Shown here in pieces: positions 6,109 through 52,729 of a DNA stretch of 64,000 nt; positions within the stretch are counted from its first letter, which is position 1; each line of letters opens with the position of its first letter. The notes under the pieces are model-generated. The model was not told the origin of the DNA and searched no databases. It worked only from the letters and a program-made list of their open reading frames with translations. Both the position numbers and the translations under genes were made by a program. The DNA is from Cocleimonas flava (lineage in GTDB: Bacteria; Pseudomonadota; Gammaproteobacteria; Thiotrichales; Thiotrichaceae): assembly GCF_004339015.1 (NCBI RefSeq), contig NZ_SMFQ01000004.1, positions 124,001 to 188,000 of the forward strand. Reading direction: 5' to 3'.

Positions 6109-7293
6109 TTATTCGGTTAATATTTTATATCTTGCTAAGTCTTTTTTATAATCATAATTAATATCAATAATTTTTTTATCAGTATCCCCTATCGCCTCTA
6201 TATATTGTTTTATAGTCTTGTTTATATTAAAAATTTTCTTAGAATTTTTCATATAGGATGCCTCATCTGTAATACTTTTAGACTTACTTTCTAAGCTTAA
6301 AATTTTCGTTTTAAGTACTGTCACTTGTTTATTAAGTATTTTTTTATTGCCTTTAAGCTCCTTTATTTTACTTTCGAAAAAACTGACCAGCTCATCTTCG
6401 TTTTCATAAGTTGATAGCAAGGTATCGTCTCTTTCTGATGTTTCTAGTGTCTTTATATAATCTAATTTCTTCTGTTTCGATTCTAAATTTACTTGTGTGC
6501 TTATATTGTTAGTTTCACTTGAAAATTTTTCAGTAAAAAGAGTCATATAATATTTGTCTTTCTTTTCGAGTGGAAAATCTAGAACTGTGATTTCACCTTT
6601 AGGAGAAACATATTTCTTTTCTATAATGGTCAGTTCAGAATCATCAATAGCAGCATCTTTACGTGGTACTGGCTCACCAGTTTCAACATAACCTAGATCA
6701 ATCAATGCTTTATTTATTTCTTCAAAACTGAACAGTTCGATGTCATTGGGTGTGTGAATCATTACATCAATAGTACAGCCATCATCTACAGGGGATACAG
6801 CATAACTTATTTCATGTTTCTTAAATTCATAAACCCCTTTAAAGTCTTTTGCTAGTGATAATTCGGGTGAATTTTTTAAGAATTCATTTAGCGCTTCTTT
6901 ATTATCAAACTCTTTTCTACAGTAATTATTATGTATTGATAAAAAATTATTCAGATAATCATTTGTATCATTTCGCTGTCTCAATTCTCCTGATGTTTGA
7001 CTACTACTCGAACTCCCTACAGCACCACCGTTATGTTGGTGTTGCACACCTTGAACAGGTAAAGGGTGTGAATGAGATCGTCCAGAATGAGAATGATGGG
7101 TATCACCTGTTTGTTTATTAAGTTGTTTATTAAGTCCTTTCTTTAATAAAATTGCTGATGCTGGTATTTTGTCCGAAAAATGTACCTTCCCATTATCATC
7201 GACCCAACGGTATAAGCCAGCTAGTGCTTGAAATGAAATTGTAATTAAAAACACGATAGATGATAAATACAGACACAATTTTCTTATACGCAT
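6109..7293 (-). CDS. Secreted DUF4124 protein with six-histidine motif and coiled coil
   Basis: A 394-aa exported protein. Signal peptide 1-25; DUF4124 domain at 26-45 (GLYRWVDDNGKVHFSD), a small periplasmic fold; then a histidine motif with H67, H69, H74, H76, H85 and H87 around GRSHSHPLP. The C-terminal half is Lys/Glu-rich and probably coiled coil (about 270-390). The first nine residues and the leader match those of the gene at 7463-8689, so the two are at least partly duplicated. The histidine pairs suggest binding of Zn, Cu, Ni or Co in the periplasm (inference); function is otherwise unknown. AGGAG lies eight bases before the ATG. Confidence 0.75.
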   Translation of the reverse strand: MRIRKLCLYLSSIVFLITISFQALAGLYRWVDDNGKVHFSDKIPASAILLKKGLNKQLNKQTGDTHHSHSGRSHSHPLPVQGVQHQHNGGAVGSSSSSQTSGELRQRNDTNDYLNNFLSIHNNYCRKEFDNKEALNEFLKNSPELSLAKDFKGVYEFKKHEISYAVSPVDDGCTIDVMIHTPNDIELFSFEEINKALIDLGYVETGEPVPRKDAAIDDSELTIIEKKYVSPKGEITVLDFPLEKKDKYYMTLFTEKFSSETNNISTQVNLESKQKKLDYIKTLETSERDDTLLSTYENEDELVSFFESKIKELKGNKKILNKQVTVLKTKILSLESKSKSITDEASYMKNSKKIFNINKTIKQYIEAIGDTDKKIIDINYDYKKDLARYKILTE

Positions 7294-7362
7294 TTTTTCT
7301 CTCCTTGATTGTTTACCTTATTTAAATAAGGATAAACTGAAACCAACCTTTAGCACGCAGCT
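7294..7362 (-). promoter_or_regulatory. Shared leader of the six-His genes, copy 1
   Basis: Read on the minus strand, this leader contains CAGTTTATCC, a GGTAAACAA block and CAAGGAGAGA just before the ATG. The same blocks in the same order precede the gene at 8690-8757. In this copy CCTTATTTAAATAAGG forms a perfect palindrome between the blocks. Common regulation of the two genes is likely. Confidence 0.5.
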
Positions 7363-7462
7363 ATTATTTTTGATGTTCTATATAATTTGCTTTATTTTTT
7401 CTTTAACTCTATTGTTCTTTCAATATATCCTAATTACTCTTTGACTCGTTTTAAATATTCTT

Positions 7463-8689
7463 TCACTCTAGCATCATATCTTTACTATCTCTAAGTTCTT
7501 TTGATTTGTGTTCTTGCAGCTCAAACTGTTCTTCATGAACTATATCTCCCTCACTTATATAACCAAGTGTTTGAATAATCTTGGAGTATCTTTTCTGAAT
7601 TTTTTTATCTGACTCGTTTTCATTAAGAAGGTAATACTTGTAATGTGAACTTGCTTTCAAAAGATATTTTCGATAGGTTCTTACCTTAGAGCCAGCCATA
7701 GACGACAACTTTATAGGGAAAAGGCCACGTAAAGGCATCTCACTTAGATAATAGTAGTAATCGCCGATTATTTGATTTGAAACATATCCAAGTGAACGCG
7801 CTTTATCTAGATAATTTTTAACCTTTTTGAACTCTTCACGACCACAAAATGAAAATTCTCCATTACAATCTTCGATTAAAATGCTGGCCATCCTCGCAAA
7901 CGCTATTGCTACCTTGTACTCAGTAGCTTTTAAAATATACCTCCTTTCAGAAGTTTCACTCTTTCTAACTCCTTCACCATATAAATAGTGAAGCCCAAGT
8001 GCATGGTAAGCATAAGGATAGAATAAATCAGCGGCATCCTTCGTATAACGGTAAGATTTATCGTAATCTTTTAATTTATTGTAAGCGCGCCCAAGGTTCA
8101 ATAGATAACGTGCATTGCTAGGTTCTTTCACAAGTGCGCTTTTACAAGCCATAACGGCCTTACTGCCATTAATTTTATCAAATAATATTCCTTCCCCCAC
8201 TTTGTGTGGATCATTTGGGTTACCTGCTAGTTCATCGCATAAATTTGCTAAGTTTGAATTACTCAGTCTCAAATTACTTGAGTTAACTATTTCAGGTTCG
8301 CCAAAAAACATCTTACCTCTTTTTAAGGAAGTATTGCCGCCACCATTTGGCTTACCGTTTAAAAACCATTTTTGGTCTCCGTCTCCTTCGGCATATCCTT
8401 TGATACACTTACCTGTCCATGTAAGTGATTCATTTGGCATTGGGTTCTCATTAAAATGAAAGCACCCTTTTTTATCAGCAATGTAATTAGCTGGTGCACT
8501 AGTAGTAACTCTATTACTAGCTGATTCACCAATAGCACTATTACCGTGCCTATGGCCAATACCTTGAGTAGGTAAAGCATGCGTATGAGAACGGCCACCA
8601 TGAGAATGTGGTTGAGCATAGCTTTGTGACATTGATATGAACAACAGTAAAACTATTGGTGAATAAAGACACAACTTACTTATACGCAT
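7463..8689 (-). CDS. Secreted six-histidine protein with MORN-like segment and Sel1/TPR repeats
   Basis: A 408-aa exported protein. Signal peptide 1-25; histidine motif immediately after it (H28, H30, H35, H37, H46, H48). Residues about 75-115 contain a MORN-like segment (TGKCIKGYAEGDG), and 140-330 contain TPR/Sel1-type helices (for example NLGRAYNKLKDYDKSY and HALGLHYLYGEGV). The arrangement suggests a periplasmic scaffold with a metal-binding N-terminus. The N-terminus MRISKLCLY is nearly the same as that of the neighbouring gene downstream, which has its own leader 169 bases away. Molecular role unknown. Confidence 0.75.
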   Translation of the reverse strand: MRISKLCLYSPIVLLLFISMSQSYAQPHSHGGRSHTHALPTQGIGHRHGNSAIGESASNRVTTSAPANYIADKKGCFHFNENPMPNESLTWTGKCIKGYAEGDGDQKWFLNGKPNGGGNTSLKRGKMFFGEPEIVNSSNLRLSNSNLANLCDELAGNPNDPHKVGEGILFDKINGSKAVMACKSALVKEPSNARYLLNLGRAYNKLKDYDKSYRYTKDAADLFYPYAYHALGLHYLYGEGVRKSETSERRYILKATEYKVAIAFARMASILIEDCNGEFSFCGREEFKKVKNYLDKARSLGYVSNQIIGDYYYYLSEMPLRGLFPIKLSSMAGSKVRTYRKYLLKASSHYKYYLLNENESDKKIQKRYSKIIQTLGYISEGDIVHEEQFELQEHKSKELRDSKDMMLE

Positions 8690-25919: not shown

Positions 25920-26567
25920 TTAGACAAACATATCTTCAAGCTTTTGTTTGTCGATATAAAACCCCTGATAGTAAATAACTTTATTCAAATTATACTTTGA
26001 GTAAAAACACTGATCTCCAACACGGGCAAAAACCTGTTTATCGCGCTTGTCTTGTTTAATCTTGTCTAATAAAGCGCCCTCACTGTGTAGAACTCTGGTT
26101 AAAGAAAACTGATCAATAATATACTGTTGTCCCTTTGATAAAAACGAATCTCCCGCTTTAAGCAGCCAAACATTTGGCTTGGGTAAGTGATAGGTTTTTC
26201 TCAAGAAACAACATACCCCATCTTTAATGATGAGTAAGGCATAACCATAGTTGGGAGCGTACAGCTGATATTCCACCCAATCTTCTTCCTTGCCTTGTAG
26301 GGTTTCATAAACCACCAGAGCGCTAATCGTAAAAGCAATTCCTTCGATATTGGCCTGCATGCCAATACGCAAGTGACTAGCGGGCTTCTGAACCTCTGTA
26401 TAAGCGTAAAGCGCGCGCAGATCATTTTTGTAATCCATGACTGTACCGCAATAGCCACAAACCAATAACTGACAACGCTTTGGGTTACCGATAATTTCAA
26501 AAGGAGCATGACAATTTGTACATTGAACCGGTTGAGCTTTTTTTATTGTATTCATTAGCTGTTTCAT
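25920..26567 (-). CDS. Zinc-ribbon DUF4178 protein (second of two)
   Basis: A 215-aa protein starting at the ATG that overlaps the previous gene's TGA (ATGA), preferred to a start 35 codons further up. C16 and C19 with C37 and C40 make an N-terminal zinc ribbon. The rest is a DUF4178-type beta-barrel domain with GMQANIEGIAFTISALV and EEDWVEYQLY. DUF4178 function is unknown; the domain often occurs in stress or membrane-associated operons. It forms a tightly coupled three-gene unit with the upstream DUF4178 gene and a large helicase. Confidence 0.75.
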   Translation of the reverse strand: MKQLMNTIKKAQPVQCTNCHAPFEIIGNPKRCQLLVCGYCGTVMDYKNDLRALYAYTEVQKPASHLRIGMQANIEGIAFTISALVVYETLQGKEEDWVEYQLYAPNYGYALLIIKDGVCCFLRKTYHLPKPNVWLLKAGDSFLSKGQQYIIDQFSLTRVLHSEGALLDKIKQDKRDKQVFARVGDQCFYSKYNLNKVIYYQGFYIDKQKLEDMFV

Positions 26568-27187
26568 GGTTGCACAAGATCCATTGGGTCTAACCACCAA
26601 CCTTGATAGGCTGTATATGGGTAGTGTGCACTTCCACTTTTTGGCTGGCCAGTAGATACCAATACCAGACATTCGCCTTCGGTATTACTCAAATAACTGC
26701 ATTGGATTTGACTATTTTGTAACGGTAAATTTTGTAATTCGCCATAAAAAGCGACGAAACTGACTTCCCTTTTCTCTACGACCAACCAATCTGAAGTTTC
26801 AATTATCAACTGAGTATTAGGCTGCATTGAACTCCATGCGGGTAATGAGGCTTCTATCTTGGGAATCTGTTTCACAAAGAAAAGGTTCTCTTCTTCCTGA
26901 TTTAAAATGTACGTGTTCTGATCATTATCCATTAATTCCCATTCGACTCTAAACCCATCTTCATACTCATAGAGGCTATAACCTTTGGGTATGTAGGACG
27001 CATTTTTTATCTGGACTGAATGGCCAATGTCGAACAAATATTTATCTGTGTTTTTCACCACATTGATATCGGAAAGACTCGTCGTATTGTTCTGAATATA
27101 GATGCTCGAATTACAAGACGGGCAACTCAATAGTTTTGTTGCACCAGTATCGAGTAAATAGCCACATTGAGGGCATGAATGCGTCAT
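26564..27187 (-). CDS. Zinc-ribbon DUF4178 protein (first of two)
   Basis: A 207-aa protein. N-terminal zinc ribbon (C5, C8, C22, C25), then a DUF4178-like domain with GHSVQIKNASYIPKGYSLYE and EDGFRVEWELMD. It is diverged from its downstream neighbour yet shares the architecture, so the two look like an old tandem duplication whose products may pair. It starts four bases after the helicase stop. Confidence 0.75.
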   Translation of the reverse strand: MTHSCPQCGYLLDTGATKLLSCPSCNSSIYIQNNTTSLSDINVVKNTDKYLFDIGHSVQIKNASYIPKGYSLYEYEDGFRVEWELMDNDQNTYILNQEEENLFFVKQIPKIEASLPAWSSMQPNTQLIIETSDWLVVEKREVSFVAFYGELQNLPLQNSQIQCSYLSNTEGECLVLVSTGQPKSGSAHYPYTAYQGWWLDPMDLVQP

Positions 27188-27191
27188 TGGC

Positions 27192-30014
27192 TTACTCCCA
27201 TCTTTCTATCATTTGAAGCGGAGTTTCTACATTGCGTCTTTTCAAGACCCTTTCTACGCTGGCTTTTAACAACAGTTTTTCACCCACTACACTGTTAGCC
27301 GTGATTAGATTGGCTTTTTTGAATTCGGGAAAGACTCGTCTCCATTCTGCGAGAAAATCATTCGCATCGCTTTTATTATTACCGATCAATTTAGGGATAC
27401 TAAATAAATCCTGTATGGTGGGTTTTGCATATAATGCCAATAAATAACGACTGCTTCCCAATGGTTGTAAAAACTCATTCAATACTTCGAGGAAGTTCTC
27501 ATTTTCCTGACGCGTATAGTCATTCAATGAAAACCTTAAAATACCATTATCTACAAAGCGGATATTTATCGCGTCGTTAATCTTATCTTTTTGTAGCGCC
27601 GTTTTCATGACCCCTTTGTTATGCAAACTTAGCAAAATTACTTTAGCTATTTTTTGCCCAATATCGATTGAATGACGTTTGTCATTCAGTCCTTTGGCTT
27701 TGATTAAAGCAAACGATACTGCGCCACCTGCTGACCCACCAAATGCATAAGCATAACTACTGAAACCACTATTGAATAATGTATAAGCGGCAGCGGAACC
27801 CAGGCCCATCAACCCTAAAGCGGCTAATTTGTATTTTTTACCATGATTTCGTCTACGTTCATTCACTACTGTTAGCAAACGTTCCAGACTATACAGCTCA
27901 GCGTGATCATCTACTTGATGGTGTAAACCCACCTGAAAAACCTGATGCTTTGCTTTGGCTAATGCGTTCTGCCAACGTGCCTGCAGATTAAAGAGATCAT
28001 CCGTTAAACGTGTTTGCATGATTTGATTGTTCGTCTGGATAACATCTTGTTTGGATTCGGGTGATTTCTCTTTCCTTAGCTCCGGTTCTACAGCGTTTGT
28101 TCCTTCTATCTCATCAATGGTTCGCAGGGATAATCGTTCAGTGCCCGACTCAATCTTCAAATCATAAGCATGCAATCCGGCAAAGGTTCGAAAACGTTTT
28201 TGCAGGTTTTCAAAAATCAGTCCATTCAAACGTTGCTCAGGCGCGGTGGCTACAATGTGCCAGATGCTGGCAGTTTTAAAGTCATCCTGTGGATCAACAC
28301 GCATCACTCTGCCACGTAATTGATTAGTCGCAACATAAGCCCTTGTCTGGGTTGCCATCACCAAAGCATTTAAAAATGGTGCATCCCAACCCTCTCCCAA
28401 TAATGCTCGGGTTCCTACAATTATCTGCAAATCACCTGCTTCAAGTAAACGCGTATAAGCCGCAGAAAGATAACTCGTTGCACCGCCGCACAACACAAAA
28501 TCTTTATGCTCGCTAAAAGCCTTTATCGTGGGTTGAGCATGAGATGGTATGTGACTAAATAATGTATCAACCAAGTGAGATGGAAGAATACAAAGTCGCC
28601 CCGTTAACAAAGCAATTTTTGATATTACCTTGCCATTGATGCCACCGCGGTTATCGCTGTCATTGAGGCCATCAAACTTGTGAATAAAATGATGAAAAAT
28701 CGGATATGCGCCCGTTGTCACTCCCGTTGAACCGGCACTGGTATCGAGCGATAAAGCCAGCTCTTCATCCCTTATATAATCTGCCAGAACCACCATTCTC
28801 AATAATGACTTTCGGTTAGCTATTTCTATTTTTGCAATTTCGAAACAGGCGGAAATACGTTCTTCTGTTTTATTAAAGGCATCTAGTTTGCTTTGGGTAT
28901 TATCGAACTGAACCTGATTATATTTGAGGTAACGCTTTCTTTTTAACAAGGCGGTCAACGTGTTTCTAAATGATTCTACCGGCTCTGACTTGGGGTAATA
29001 ATCACCCTGCAAAAAAGACTCAATCAGGGTTTGCCAATTATTTACCGCAAGAGGTGGAATATCATCAGCGCTAATATCCAACGCTTGTAATAAATGCGGA
29101 GGCAATGATTTTTGCCAATGTTTCAGTAACTGCAATAAAGCGATGACTGTTTCAATATTGAGTAACAACTCCCGTTCGCTGATGGTAGTTGATCCCTCCG
29201 TTTCAACTAAGAACTCATGTAACAGAAGCTGATAATTCAATTCATCATTTGTCGTTAGCTCTGCTAAAAACGTTTTAAGATTATCTTCGTAACGTTCTAA
29301 TGACTGGATGTTTTTCTCATCGGTTTTCACCAGCCAGATATAGTCTTGATGCGGACAAAGAGATCGTGATTTAACCAGTTCCGGAATGCTGATTTCTTCA
29401 TCTACTGGACCACATAACTTTTTATAACGTGACCATTCCGTGGTGTTCGAGTCATAAGGGGGTGTTGCTGTAAGGCTTACGACGATTAAATCATCATTAT
29501 CTTTAACCAGATCGTAAAGCACTGCCCACCAACTCGCTTTTAAATGATGCGCTTCATCTAAAATGATCAGACCAAATTTTTGGGAGCGAAACCACTGTTT
29601 TAAATCGTGCAGTTGATTAGCTGGAGATTCTATTTGTTTTTTCTTTAACTGCTTATCGAAACTGTACAAGGCCTGATAAGTCGTTGAAGTGAAATATTCT
29701 GGTTCATCTAAAACCGAGCTTACCCAGTCAGGCAATACACTATTATTTTGATCAAGGACACTTTCATCACTATCGATAAATAAAGATAGTCGTTCGATCC
29801 ATTGATCTTTGACTAGAACAGTAGGCGACAGGGTTAGGGTTTTAACGTTTAGCCGATTGAATATTTCTAAACCTAAAACCGTTTTGCCCGCTCCAGGCGC
29901 GGCAACGATATGGACACGCTTGTCTACCATATAATCATTTAAACGACTCAACACTTTTAATTGCTCAGGTCGCCATGGATGAATAAAACTTAAATCAGCA
30001 GTGCTAGCGTTCAA
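27192..30014 (-). CDS. SF2 DEAH-type helicase with hydrophobic hairpin
   Basis: A 940-aa superfamily II helicase of the type III restriction/UvrB-like class. Walker A APGAGKT (39-45), DEAH at 153-156, TAT at 182-184, GEGWDAP (540-546) and QLRGRVMR (565-572). The region 365-480 is an insert between the two RecA lobes. Beyond the motor, residues 729-748 and 754-772 are Gly/Ala-rich and hydrophobic, like a membrane hairpin, and 780-940 is a helical C-terminal domain of no known family. No nuclease or methylase motif is visible. It leads an operon with two zinc-ribbon DUF4178 proteins. Confidence 0.85.
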   Translation of the reverse strand: MNASTADLSFIHPWRPEQLKVLSRLNDYMVDKRVHIVAAPGAGKTVLGLEIFNRLNVKTLTLSPTVLVKDQWIERLSLFIDSDESVLDQNNSVLPDWVSSVLDEPEYFTSTTYQALYSFDKQLKKKQIESPANQLHDLKQWFRSQKFGLIILDEAHHLKASWWAVLYDLVKDNDDLIVVSLTATPPYDSNTTEWSRYKKLCGPVDEEISIPELVKSRSLCPHQDYIWLVKTDEKNIQSLERYEDNLKTFLAELTTNDELNYQLLLHEFLVETEGSTTISERELLLNIETVIALLQLLKHWQKSLPPHLLQALDISADDIPPLAVNNWQTLIESFLQGDYYPKSEPVESFRNTLTALLKRKRYLKYNQVQFDNTQSKLDAFNKTEERISACFEIAKIEIANRKSLLRMVVLADYIRDEELALSLDTSAGSTGVTTGAYPIFHHFIHKFDGLNDSDNRGGINGKVISKIALLTGRLCILPSHLVDTLFSHIPSHAQPTIKAFSEHKDFVLCGGATSYLSAAYTRLLEAGDLQIIVGTRALLGEGWDAPFLNALVMATQTRAYVATNQLRGRVMRVDPQDDFKTASIWHIVATAPEQRLNGLIFENLQKRFRTFAGLHAYDLKIESGTERLSLRTIDEIEGTNAVEPELRKEKSPESKQDVIQTNNQIMQTRLTDDLFNLQARWQNALAKAKHQVFQVGLHHQVDDHAELYSLERLLTVVNERRRNHGKKYKLAALGLMGLGSAAAYTLFNSGFSSYAYAFGGSAGGAVSFALIKAKGLNDKRHSIDIGQKIAKVILLSLHNKGVMKTALQKDKINDAINIRFVDNGILRFSLNDYTRQENENFLEVLNEFLQPLGSSRYLLALYAKPTIQDLFSIPKLIGNNKSDANDFLAEWRRVFPEFKKANLITANSVVGEKLLLKASVERVLKRRNVETPLQMIERWE

Positions 30015-36284: not shown

Positions 36285-36674
36285 TCAACGATGAGAATGC
36301 TCATTAGCGCCATTTGGATGCACATGTCGCATCTCAGGATATCCATCTTTTGCAGGATGAATATGCGCATTGGCATTTACCTTCGTGCTTTCACATGAAA
36401 TTGAATGCTCATGCTGTTTATCACCGCCAACATGCGAATGGGTTCTTGCGCCAAGACAGGCATTTTCAGGATGAATATGTGGTTTTAAGTTTTTACCCGA
36501 CTTTGCTGCCGCAGAACCAGGCTTCCCTGAGTTATCACCAGAGCCAGAACACGCTACTAACACCACACTTAAGACACAACAAAACATCGCGACAAAATAC
36601 CCAGATGGATTGTGCGTAGAGTGTTTTTTAGAATTGCTGTTTAAGGGGTTTGTAATTGGGCGCATAACTATCAT
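36285..36674 (-). CDS. His/Cys-repeat lipoprotein (short paralog)
   Basis: A 129-aa lipoprotein. Residues 1-41 include a hydrophobic segment and the lipobox LVAC (acylated Cys at about 42). After a Gly/Ser linker come two units of the pattern HxHP ... HxH ... HxH: the first (HIHPENACLGARTHSH, then QHEHSISC) keeps both cysteines, the second (HIHPAKDG, RHVHPNG, EHSHR) has lost them. It is a shorter paralog of the 36801-37661 protein. Role inferred: binding Zn, Ni, Cu or Co at the outer membrane or in the periplasm. Confidence 0.7.
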   Translation of the reverse strand: MIVMRPITNPLNSNSKKHSTHNPSGYFVAMFCCVLSVVLVACSGSGDNSGKPGSAAAKSGKNLKPHIHPENACLGARTHSHVGGDKQHEHSISCESTKVNANAHIHPAKDGYPEMRHVHPNGANEHSHR

Positions 36675-36733
36675 CAGTTGAGTAAAGTAAGTAACCGAGT
36701 ATATGACAACTTTATAAAATCTTCACTACCATA

Positions 36734-36768
36734 AAAAAAGCCTCGACTGAATACAGCGAGGCTTTTTT
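36734..36768 (-). terminator. Terminator of the His/Cys-repeat lipoprotein gene
   Basis: A perfect 12-bp stem (36734-36745 with 36757-36768) rich in A and T at the base, with T-runs on both strands; 32 bases past the stop. Confidence 0.85.
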
Positions 36769-36800
36769 GAATCTACCCTGAAAATTACTTTCAGATAGTC

Positions 36801-37661
36801 TTATTTTCCATAGTTATGTGTGTGTGGACGTCTTCCCGCTCTATGCGTATGCGTAACAGAATTGGTCAGGCTATTAGCTGGATGCGTATGTGTGTAACCA
36901 ACGCCTCTACCATTACCCATACCCTTTTTATGACCCATGCCTTTACCCTGACAGCTATAACGATGCGCGTGTTTGCCTTTGCCATTTGGGTGCGCATGAG
37001 AAACCGAGCGTGTGCATTTGTTTGCAGGGTGCTTATGCTGATTTGCACTCATTTTTGCGTTACCTTGGCAACTATAACGATGTGCATGTTTGCCTTTGCC
37101 ATTTGGATGCGCGTGTGAGATCGAACGTGTGCATTTATTCGCTGGGTGCTTATGCTTATTCGCGCTCATTTTAGCGTTGCCCTGACAACTGTAACGATGC
37201 ACGTGCTCACGTTTACCATTTGGATGCGCATGCGAGATTGTGCGTGTACATTTATTCGCAGGATGCGTGTGCATATTCGCACTCTTTCTCATATTACCTT
37301 TACAGTTATAACTGTGTGAATGGGTACTCCCACCATTTGGGTGAGAATGAGAAACCGAACGTGTACATTTTTGTGCAGGGTGTGTATGTGCAACAGAAGG
37401 CTTTTTAGTAATCACTCTGCTGTTTGGCTTACAATCGTAACGATGTTTATGGGCATTGCCGCCATTGGGATGTGTATGTGTGATTGAATTCGTACATTTA
37501 TTAGCAGGGTGTGTATGTGCGATTCCTGTAGGAGCTATAGAGGTAACTTCATCTTGTGGTGATTGCTGACCAGTGAGAGTACCTGAGGTTTGAGAACATG
37601 CGCTAAGCATTAATCCCGAAAACAAGATAGTGCTTGTCGTGGATAATCGTTTTAAATTCAT
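36801..37661 (-). CDS. His/Cys-repeat lipoprotein (six tandem units)
   Basis: A 286-aa lipoprotein starting at the ATG with GGAAGAAG before it, rather than 11 codons further upstream. Lipobox LSAC, Cys at 22. Six units of 38-42 residues follow, consensus HxHPAxKCTxSxxHxHPNGxxxHxHxYxC: H49-C77, H92-C120, H131-C159, H170-C198, H209-C237, and a last unit (258-282) that has lost both cysteines. Each intact unit offers three HxH pairs and two cysteines, so the protein could hold several metal ions. The central units are nearly identical at DNA level, pointing to recent expansion. Neighbours DUF4198 and HupE suggest nickel or cobalt, but Zn or Cu cannot be excluded. Confidence 0.8.
   Translation of the reverse strand: MNLKRLSTTSTILFSGLMLSACSQTSGTLTGQQSPQDEVTSIAPTGIAHTHPANKCTNSITHTHPNGGNAHKHRYDCKPNSRVITKKPSVAHTHPAQKCTRSVSHSHPNGGSTHSHSYNCKGNMRKSANMHTHPANKCTRTISHAHPNGKREHVHRYSCQGNAKMSANKHKHPANKCTRSISHAHPNGKGKHAHRYSCQGNAKMSANQHKHPANKCTRSVSHAHPNGKGKHAHRYSCQGKGMGHKKGMGNGRGVGYTHTHPANSLTNSVTHTHRAGRRPHTHNYGK
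36871..37270. repeat. Tandem coding repeat, about 117-bp units
   Basis: Near-identical consecutive units inside the His/Cys-repeat lipoprotein gene; each encodes 39 residues. Reading frame is kept throughout. Confidence 0.8.
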
Positions 37662-37837
37662 ATCTTCTTCCTTGAATAATAATTTTTTTAACAAAAATAT
37701 TGTGATTTTATTTGTTTATTATTTTCTTTTAGATTTTTTATAGGCTCACAACCCCAGAACAATAAACCAAATACCCTTACAAATAAAGGTATTATGCTGG
37801 GCACTTATTGCGCAGCTGTTTTTGTATTATTCCGTTT

Positions 37838-51061: not shown

Positions 51062-52729
51062 CTAAAAGACAGTGCCTGTTCTATAGTAAAACTTATCTTT
51101 ATTTCGGCTAGAACGGCCTAACACGTTAAACGTTGAACCATCTGGGTCTTTTGCGTATCCATGACAGCTGAACTCCATACGCTTTTGTGGCGTAACTCCA
51201 ACGGTTGCAGCAGCTCTGACATTACAAATTTTCATGTCCTGGCGCATGGTGAAGGCATTAATTGCGGTTAATCCAAGTGCTCTATCTTTTTGCACTAATT
51301 TCGATAATTTCCAGTAACCATTACCCGTAATAGCAGAAATTCCCTTCTCATCACCGGTTGTATGTACCGCATAAATATCACCTGTTCCACATTCGGTGAT
51401 CAGTGACAGGTTTTCTGAATAGGCTAAACCTCTCGGCCATTGAGAAGGTTTCTGGGTGGATGATTGATTGATGAGTTTTAATGAAGAAGGACGACCGTTC
51501 GACGTTTCTAGAATATAAAACTGATTATAGCGTGGTCTATTATCTTGTCCGCCAGGGCCAGTAGTTACAACTAGATGACGATCATTGGCCAGTTTTACAA
51601 TACCCAGACCACCACCAAAATTCGCCTTTTCAATCGGCAAACTAAATTCAAGGTCTTGATTCTGGCTATTGATATCCATGAAATAAAGGCGTTTGCCTAA
51701 ACCATACACCAGGTATTTACCGATAATATGCACACCACTCGGATGTCTACCCTTGGTACGGTGCAACGTCGACAAATATTTTGTGCCATTACCCGATTGT
51801 TTTACAACAAAGATGCCGCCGCGTTTTTTATGACTATGGCTTCCGGCATAAGGGTAAAGTGATGAATTAGTGCGCACAAAACCTTGAACGTGCGTATCAG
51901 GAATACCTAAAGCATGCGCAGGATCACCGTCAAAAATATCCAGCGGTCTTAAGTTTTGCGGTGGGTATTTTTGTGGCCAGGTAAATGACCATGGCTTGGT
52001 TTGCCATCTGATTTGATTCGCTGCGGCGCGCTTGAATTGCTGTTGTACGTTGGCTGCACACATATTACAGTTAGGTTGTCCAACTCTACAGTTGGTGTCG
52101 CCTTTGCTTAAGCTCCTTCTTCTATCGCGTCGATTGTCGCGATCTTTGTATTTATTAAAATAGCCGTTATTGCTGGTGGTTTTTTGTACTTGCGTATTAC
52201 GCGCCGAATCGCTCGGACCGAATACTAAACCATCATTATCAGATCGGGTTGAACGTTGTGTGTTGCCGTAAATAACCGTATTGGTATGTCTGGTGGTATT
52301 ACTATTTATTCGGGTACCTAAAGAACCCGCACCATGTCGGTGTGCGTACCCCTGAGCAGGTAATGGATGAGTATGCTGTCTGCCATCATGAAAGTGCGAT
52401 GCACTAGAACCAGAGCTAATCACCGTTGCTGACTGATTACCACTACTTGAAAAGTCATAGTAATCGGGCTTAGGTGGTTTAGCCGTTGATTGAGAAGGCT
52501 GAGTACTTCCGTAAACAATTGTGCCAGTGCGCCTTACAACATTTGAGGTCGCCTGCCCGGTTGCGCCTCCATGTCTGTGTGCCAAGCCTTCTGCGGGTAA
52601 AACGTGACTGTGTTGTCTGCCGTCGTGCGTATGACTGACTGCAGCTGGTCCGGCAAAGCTTGCTGTTGCCGTTGTTGCAGCTGCTAGCATGGCTATCGCT
52701 TTAATTGAGTTTAAAAAAAACACTCTCAT
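51062..52729 (-). CDS. Secreted protein with two six-His modules and beta-propeller-like domain
   Basis: A 555-aa exported protein. Signal peptide 1-26 (SFA/GP). Two copies of a 79-residue unit follow: H33, H35, H40, H42, H51, H53 and H112, H114, H119, H121, H130, H132 in the motif HxHxGRxHxHxLPxxGxxHxHG. Each is followed by an IVYGSTQ/VIYGNTQ segment. A basic linker (about 195-215) leads to a CxxC-containing stretch (CNMC) and a large beta-rich domain (about 260-555) resembling a propeller. Role unknown; metal binding is inferred from the histidine pairs. Confidence 0.75.
   Translation of the reverse strand: MRVFFLNSIKAIAMLAAATTATASFAGPAAVSHTHDGRQHSHVLPAEGLAHRHGGATGQATSNVVRRTGTIVYGSTQPSQSTAKPPKPDYYDFSSSGNQSATVISSGSSASHFHDGRQHTHPLPAQGYAHRHGAGSLGTRINSNTTRHTNTVIYGNTQRSTRSDNDGLVFGPSDSARNTQVQKTTSNNGYFNKYKDRDNRRDRRRSLSKGDTNCRVGQPNCNMCAANVQQQFKRAAANQIRWQTKPWSFTWPQKYPPQNLRPLDIFDGDPAHALGIPDTHVQGFVRTNSSLYPYAGSHSHKKRGGIFVVKQSGNGTKYLSTLHRTKGRHPSGVHIIGKYLVYGLGKRLYFMDINSQNQDLEFSLPIEKANFGGGLGIVKLANDRHLVVTTGPGGQDNRPRYNQFYILETSNGRPSSLKLINQSSTQKPSQWPRGLAYSENLSLITECGTGDIYAVHTTGDEKGISAITGNGYWKLSKLVQKDRALGLTAINAFTMRQDMKICNVRAAATVGVTPQKRMEFSCHGYAKDPDGSTFNVLGRSSRNKDKFYYRTGTVF

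Follow-up and report, generated by a model that had tools for sequence, protein, structure and literature searches.

Three genes encoded on the minus strand occupy positions 25920-30014 of the window (the whole 64,000-nucleotide stretch of Cocleimonas flava DNA that was analysed): an SF2 helicase gene followed by two overlapping zinc-ribbon genes, named here znA and znB (Table 1). Their tight packing through a 4-base gap and an ATGA overlap agrees with the original prediction. The znB ORF that begins at 26672 represents merely an upstream start of the same gene. The operon neighbours in the window are mfd, an OmpA-type gene and purL, and an empty-site comparison based on mfd/purL showed that the sequence after mfd differs in gene content in other Cocleimonas genomes. 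A promoter scan gave no excess above shuffled sequences.

Table 1. Genes and features of the helicase-znA-znB operon (window coordinates; residues are those of the helicase).
Feature	Position	Strand	Description
Helicase gene, SF2	27192..30014	-	940 aa, TTG start
RecA-like domain 1	29325..29993 (~residues 8-230)	-	Walker A, DEAH, SAT motif; ResIII match
Linker between RecA domains	28695..29324 (residues 231-440)	-	without Pfam match
RecA-like domain 2	28140..28694 (residues 441-625)	-	motif V GTRALLGEGWDAP, motif VI NQLRGRVMR
Hydrophobic Gly-rich hairpin	27699..27830 (residues 729-772)	-	hydropathy; equivalents in nearly all relatives
C-terminal alpha/beta domain	27201..27659 (residues 786-938)	-	kept across helicase family; no known fold matched
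Gap, helicase stop to znA start	27188..27191	-	4 bases
znA	26564..27187	-	207 aa; zinc ribbon and DUF4178-type domain (sub-threshold)
ATGA overlap, znA stop/znB start (ATG)	26564..26567	-	sequence
znB	25920..26567	-	215 aa; zinc ribbon and DUF4178-type domain

The SF2 motifs of the helicase are complete (AAPGAGKT, DEAH, SLTATPP, GTRALLGEGWDAP and NQLRGRVMR), its amino-terminal motor matches ResIII (PF04851; E=2.8e-16, residues 13-186), and the domain search identified neither a nuclease nor a methylase domain, bearing out what had been proposed for this protein. By profile, the RecA motor is similar to that of the XPB/Rad25 and RadD (YejH) SF2 helicases, but there is no full-length match to them and the window helicase differs by its long linker, its membrane hairpin and a C-terminal domain of its own; scores in the XPB/RadD equivalogue test were 33.7 bits for a cut-off of 610 and 15.5 bits for a cut-off of 720 (NCBIfam equivalog cut-offs). 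The motor domain match is shared with the Res subunits of Type III restriction systems, from which the helicase differs in having no nuclease domain and no Mod partner, and the combination of nuclease domain and methyltransferase partner that identifies Type I/III restriction is absent from the window locus. The operon proteins have no full-length match among the PADLOC 2023 models, only weak motor-domain matches. PbeA of PbeABCD matches weakly along the motor segments, but the match is partial only and no PbeBCD partners are found among the neighbours. Full-length identity with a known defence, R-M or repair helicase was rejected, no full-length match having been obtained in the model searches. 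The AlphaFold2 model of the helicase C-terminal part (pLDDT 77) has no significant match in the PDB, long helices dominating the second search.

The hairpin placed between motor and C-terminal domain, which had been singled out as unusual, is present, but hydropathy indicates a feature of the whole helicase family that is weak in the window protein. Most family members have two hydrophobic segments at this place, strong in most relatives, whereas the window helicase is only marginally hydrophobic there (best 19-residue Kyte-Doolittle mean of 1.33). Phaeodactylibacter and its kin (L024, L026, L027, L028) have about four segments instead of two and the Tritonibacter helicase has none. Membrane placement of the window helicase is thus something that we infer from a hairpin which is family-wide, marginal here and absent in Tritonibacter.

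The helicase belongs to an uncharacterised family of XPB/RadD/ResIII-like SF2 ATPases whose distribution is sporadic, with relatives in Gammaproteobacteria, other Pseudomonadota, Kiritimatiellota, Bacteroidota and Bacillota. Its members were found in 1/369 gammaproteobacterial genomes, 4/398 Pseudomonadota genomes (about 1%) and 3/385 genomes of the class of G685, each count including the genome on which its search was centred. The whole architecture is common to the family, whose invariant motifs include LCPHQDYIW, TATPPYD and LLGEGWDAP (small exceptions occur in later members). In the tree, the operon helicases form a single clade with 100/100 support and a long stem, and the Tritonibacter helicase is a separate branch, itself long, in the other half. 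A close relative of the latter on a Rhodovulum plasmid (L048:7974-10309) is split into two ORFs and its gene has probably decayed. A two-pattern scan of IMG/VR found no phage-borne family member; solo helicase relatives are carried by two short "Bacteriophage sp." records, which are labelled unverified and may be bacterial.

The search for the three-gene arrangement elsewhere, advocated with the original prediction, was successful. The order helicase-znA-znB recurs in Cocleimonas, in three Lysobacterales MAGs and in one Alcanivoracaceae MAG; one Cocleimonas genome has it divided between two contigs. The helicase of L007, from the same genus as the window, is 96% identical to the window's. Note that in the Lysobacterales MAGs a DUF1232-type gene immediately precedes the operon (L009:7329-7868, L012:7269-7808 and L013:2146-2751).

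The partners are absent from most helicases, as expected of a chance juxtaposition that forms no functional unit. The overlaps and the gene order are kept, however, across several genera and between lineages whose helicases share only 43-46% identity, and the three operon genes are constrained, with dN/dS values of 0.125, 0.173 and 0.128 between the window and L007 (0.13-0.17); chance is therefore largely refuted and has become a very improbable explanation. All three genes are clearly under purifying selection, weaker than that acting on mfd and purL.

Neither znA nor znB was found in the flanks read around helicases of other lineages (mostly about 8 kb per side, less at contig ends), and a DUF4178 gene is present in none of 16 other helicase-bearing genomes (E 0.001). 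The genome of the window has no second DUF4178 gene, so that no separate DUF4178/polyamine operon is seen there. Since all operon helicases fall together in the tree, znA and znB probably joined the helicase a single time, in one gammaproteobacterial clade. The original interpretation, against which helicases normally lacking DUF4178 partners were to count, is supported as regards a conserved unit in this clade. A self-contained system built around the helicase is not supported, because the solo helicases found elsewhere largely go against it for the family. The similarity of the motor to XPB and RadD, the ordinary genes beside solo members and a function possible without DUF4178 would suit a RadD/XPB-like helicase with a housekeeping-like role in DNA repair or RNA remodelling and the zinc-ribbon genes as incidental operon mates. 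The very sparse distribution of the family and the translational overlap of the three genes, conserved in several genera, argue against this reading, which we regard as unlikely.

The two partners carry zinc ribbons of the form CxxC-x13-CxxC (znA) and CxxC-x17-CxxC (znB) whose eight Cys are all invariant among the operon homologues. DUF4178, initially proposed for both, is sub-threshold in znA (21.2 bits, Pfam cut-off 25) and has no direct Pfam detection in znB, which is assigned to the DUF4178 type on the basis of the strong similarity (5.8e-39) of its homologue profile to proteins passing the DUF4178 cut-off. The znB model is beta-rich (pLDDT 65) and its fold search gave no significant match.

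The setting reported for DUF4178 is the PSP/polyamine envelope-stress operon (PMC11237479), whose overlapping ZnR-DUF4178 pair has the same order as znA-znB and corresponds to it gene for gene. In G078 and G335 a short ZnR-DUF4178 gene and a longer one, whose product features a TM and a beta extension, are adjacent or overlapping beside a 7TM-spermine synthase gene; the znA profile finds the first (1e-21) and the znB profile the second. In G103 (L036:7337-9313) the znA-like and znB-like halves are fused in a 658 aa protein encoded next to the 7TM-spermine synthase. It would thus seem that the two proteins already formed a unit before the helicase clade acquired them. The window operon differs from the PSP/polyamine operon by having the helicase instead of spermine synthase, DUF350 or PspA-linked genes: no aminopropyltransferase, DUF350, PspA or band-7 gene is found alongside and a PspA match is on another contig. 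Unlike its PSP-operon counterparts, znB has no TM and beta extension, which it looks to have lost or never had. The initial opinion that the operon fits no nameable system stands in that no system model matched in the libraries searched, but not for the zinc-ribbon pair, which has this precedent.

The Tritonibacter helicase gene adjoins a ZnR-DUF4178 operon of the PSP/polyamine type, in divergent and not operonic arrangement, which suggests a link to membrane stress; although this is a judgement from one species, the adjacency is unlikely to be coincidental. No zinc-ribbon pair was found near the related Rhodovulum helicase. In G956 (L081:5570-10684) the helicase-family gene lies beside, and divergently to, a LemA gene and two genes with TPM domains. 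Envelope-stress genes are not found next to most solo helicases.

Divergence along the window from its Cocleimonas relative is strongly uneven, dS ranging from 0 to over 2. The segment 5373-15317 is about 97% identical to contig C14 of G007, with dS near 0 at 5.5-12 kb, whereas other parts of the window have values above 1; the two Cocleimonas genomes thus compare as a recombination mosaic. The low dS of the operon is for this reason not special, and a recent transfer of the operon alone, considered on account of that low dS, was rejected because the mosaic spans the whole window. Predicted secreted proteins encoded at 6109-8689, 36285-37694 and 51062-52729 carry repeated His-rich motifs (e.g., HSHxLPxxGxxHRH) and may form a paralogous family of metal-binding proteins. 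Helicases of the operon clade show slightly more divergence in their C-terminal domain and hairpin than in the motor and have lost the Y and R of the C-terminal YTR motif found in solo members, which together give a modest hint that this end of the protein adapted to the partners.

Outside Cocleimonas, two or three of the 4 operon loci have defence genes beside them. A complete HaeIII-type R-M system (C5 methylase and HaeIII-type endonuclease) adjoins it in L009, a C5 methylase, an NgoFVII endonuclease and a Phd/ParE-like toxin-antitoxin-like pair in L012, and HipA genes in L010. These neighbours and the patchy, cross-phylum distribution of the helicase favour an anti-phage or anti-plasmid operon in which, at the membrane, the helicase would engage incoming DNA, with the zinc-ribbon proteins recognising or signalling invasion. 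The weak, motor-only matches in PADLOC, the negative IMG/VR scan, the ordinary or housekeeping genes around the L011 and window operons and the ordinary surroundings of solo helicases, not flanked in this way, speak against it; the scan of 95 neighbours of solo helicases for defence yielded for the most part matches of a generic ATPase type, plus a single HEC-05 candidate. The proximity to defence genes, a check advocated with the original prediction, is thus confined to operon loci outside Cocleimonas, and a defence operon, while possible, appears rather doubtful.

The best reading, with a probability of about 0.4, is that an SF2 translocase associated with the membrane has captured a ZnR-DUF4178 adaptor pair of the envelope-stress response. 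Family members would be SF2 ATPases usually bearing a membrane-inserting hairpin between the motor and the C-terminal alpha/beta domain, and one gammaproteobacterial clade would have captured, probably once, the overlapping pair of PSP/polyamine operons. The hairpin may hold the motor against the inner side of the membrane, and the two soluble zinc-ribbon proteins, presumably in a physical complex with it, may act as an adaptor linking or regulating ATP-driven movement on a putative nucleic-acid substrate to the state of the membrane or envelope. A module for nucleic-acid surveillance or defence at the membrane, in which a tethered SF2 translocase under an envelope-stress sensor pair would couple membrane damage (e.g., where a phage or plasmid enters) to an activity on nucleic acid, is improbable.

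The three-gene unit is not described in the literature searched and combines a motor of known kind with a pair familiar from stress operons. It defines a helicase family that is widespread yet unstudied and has a membrane hairpin, and it provides a handle on DUF4178, a function-unassigned domain of envelope-stress operons. That a helicase has captured the ZnR-DUF4178 proteins suggests that the two make up a portable module, which can be tested away from the polyamine setting.
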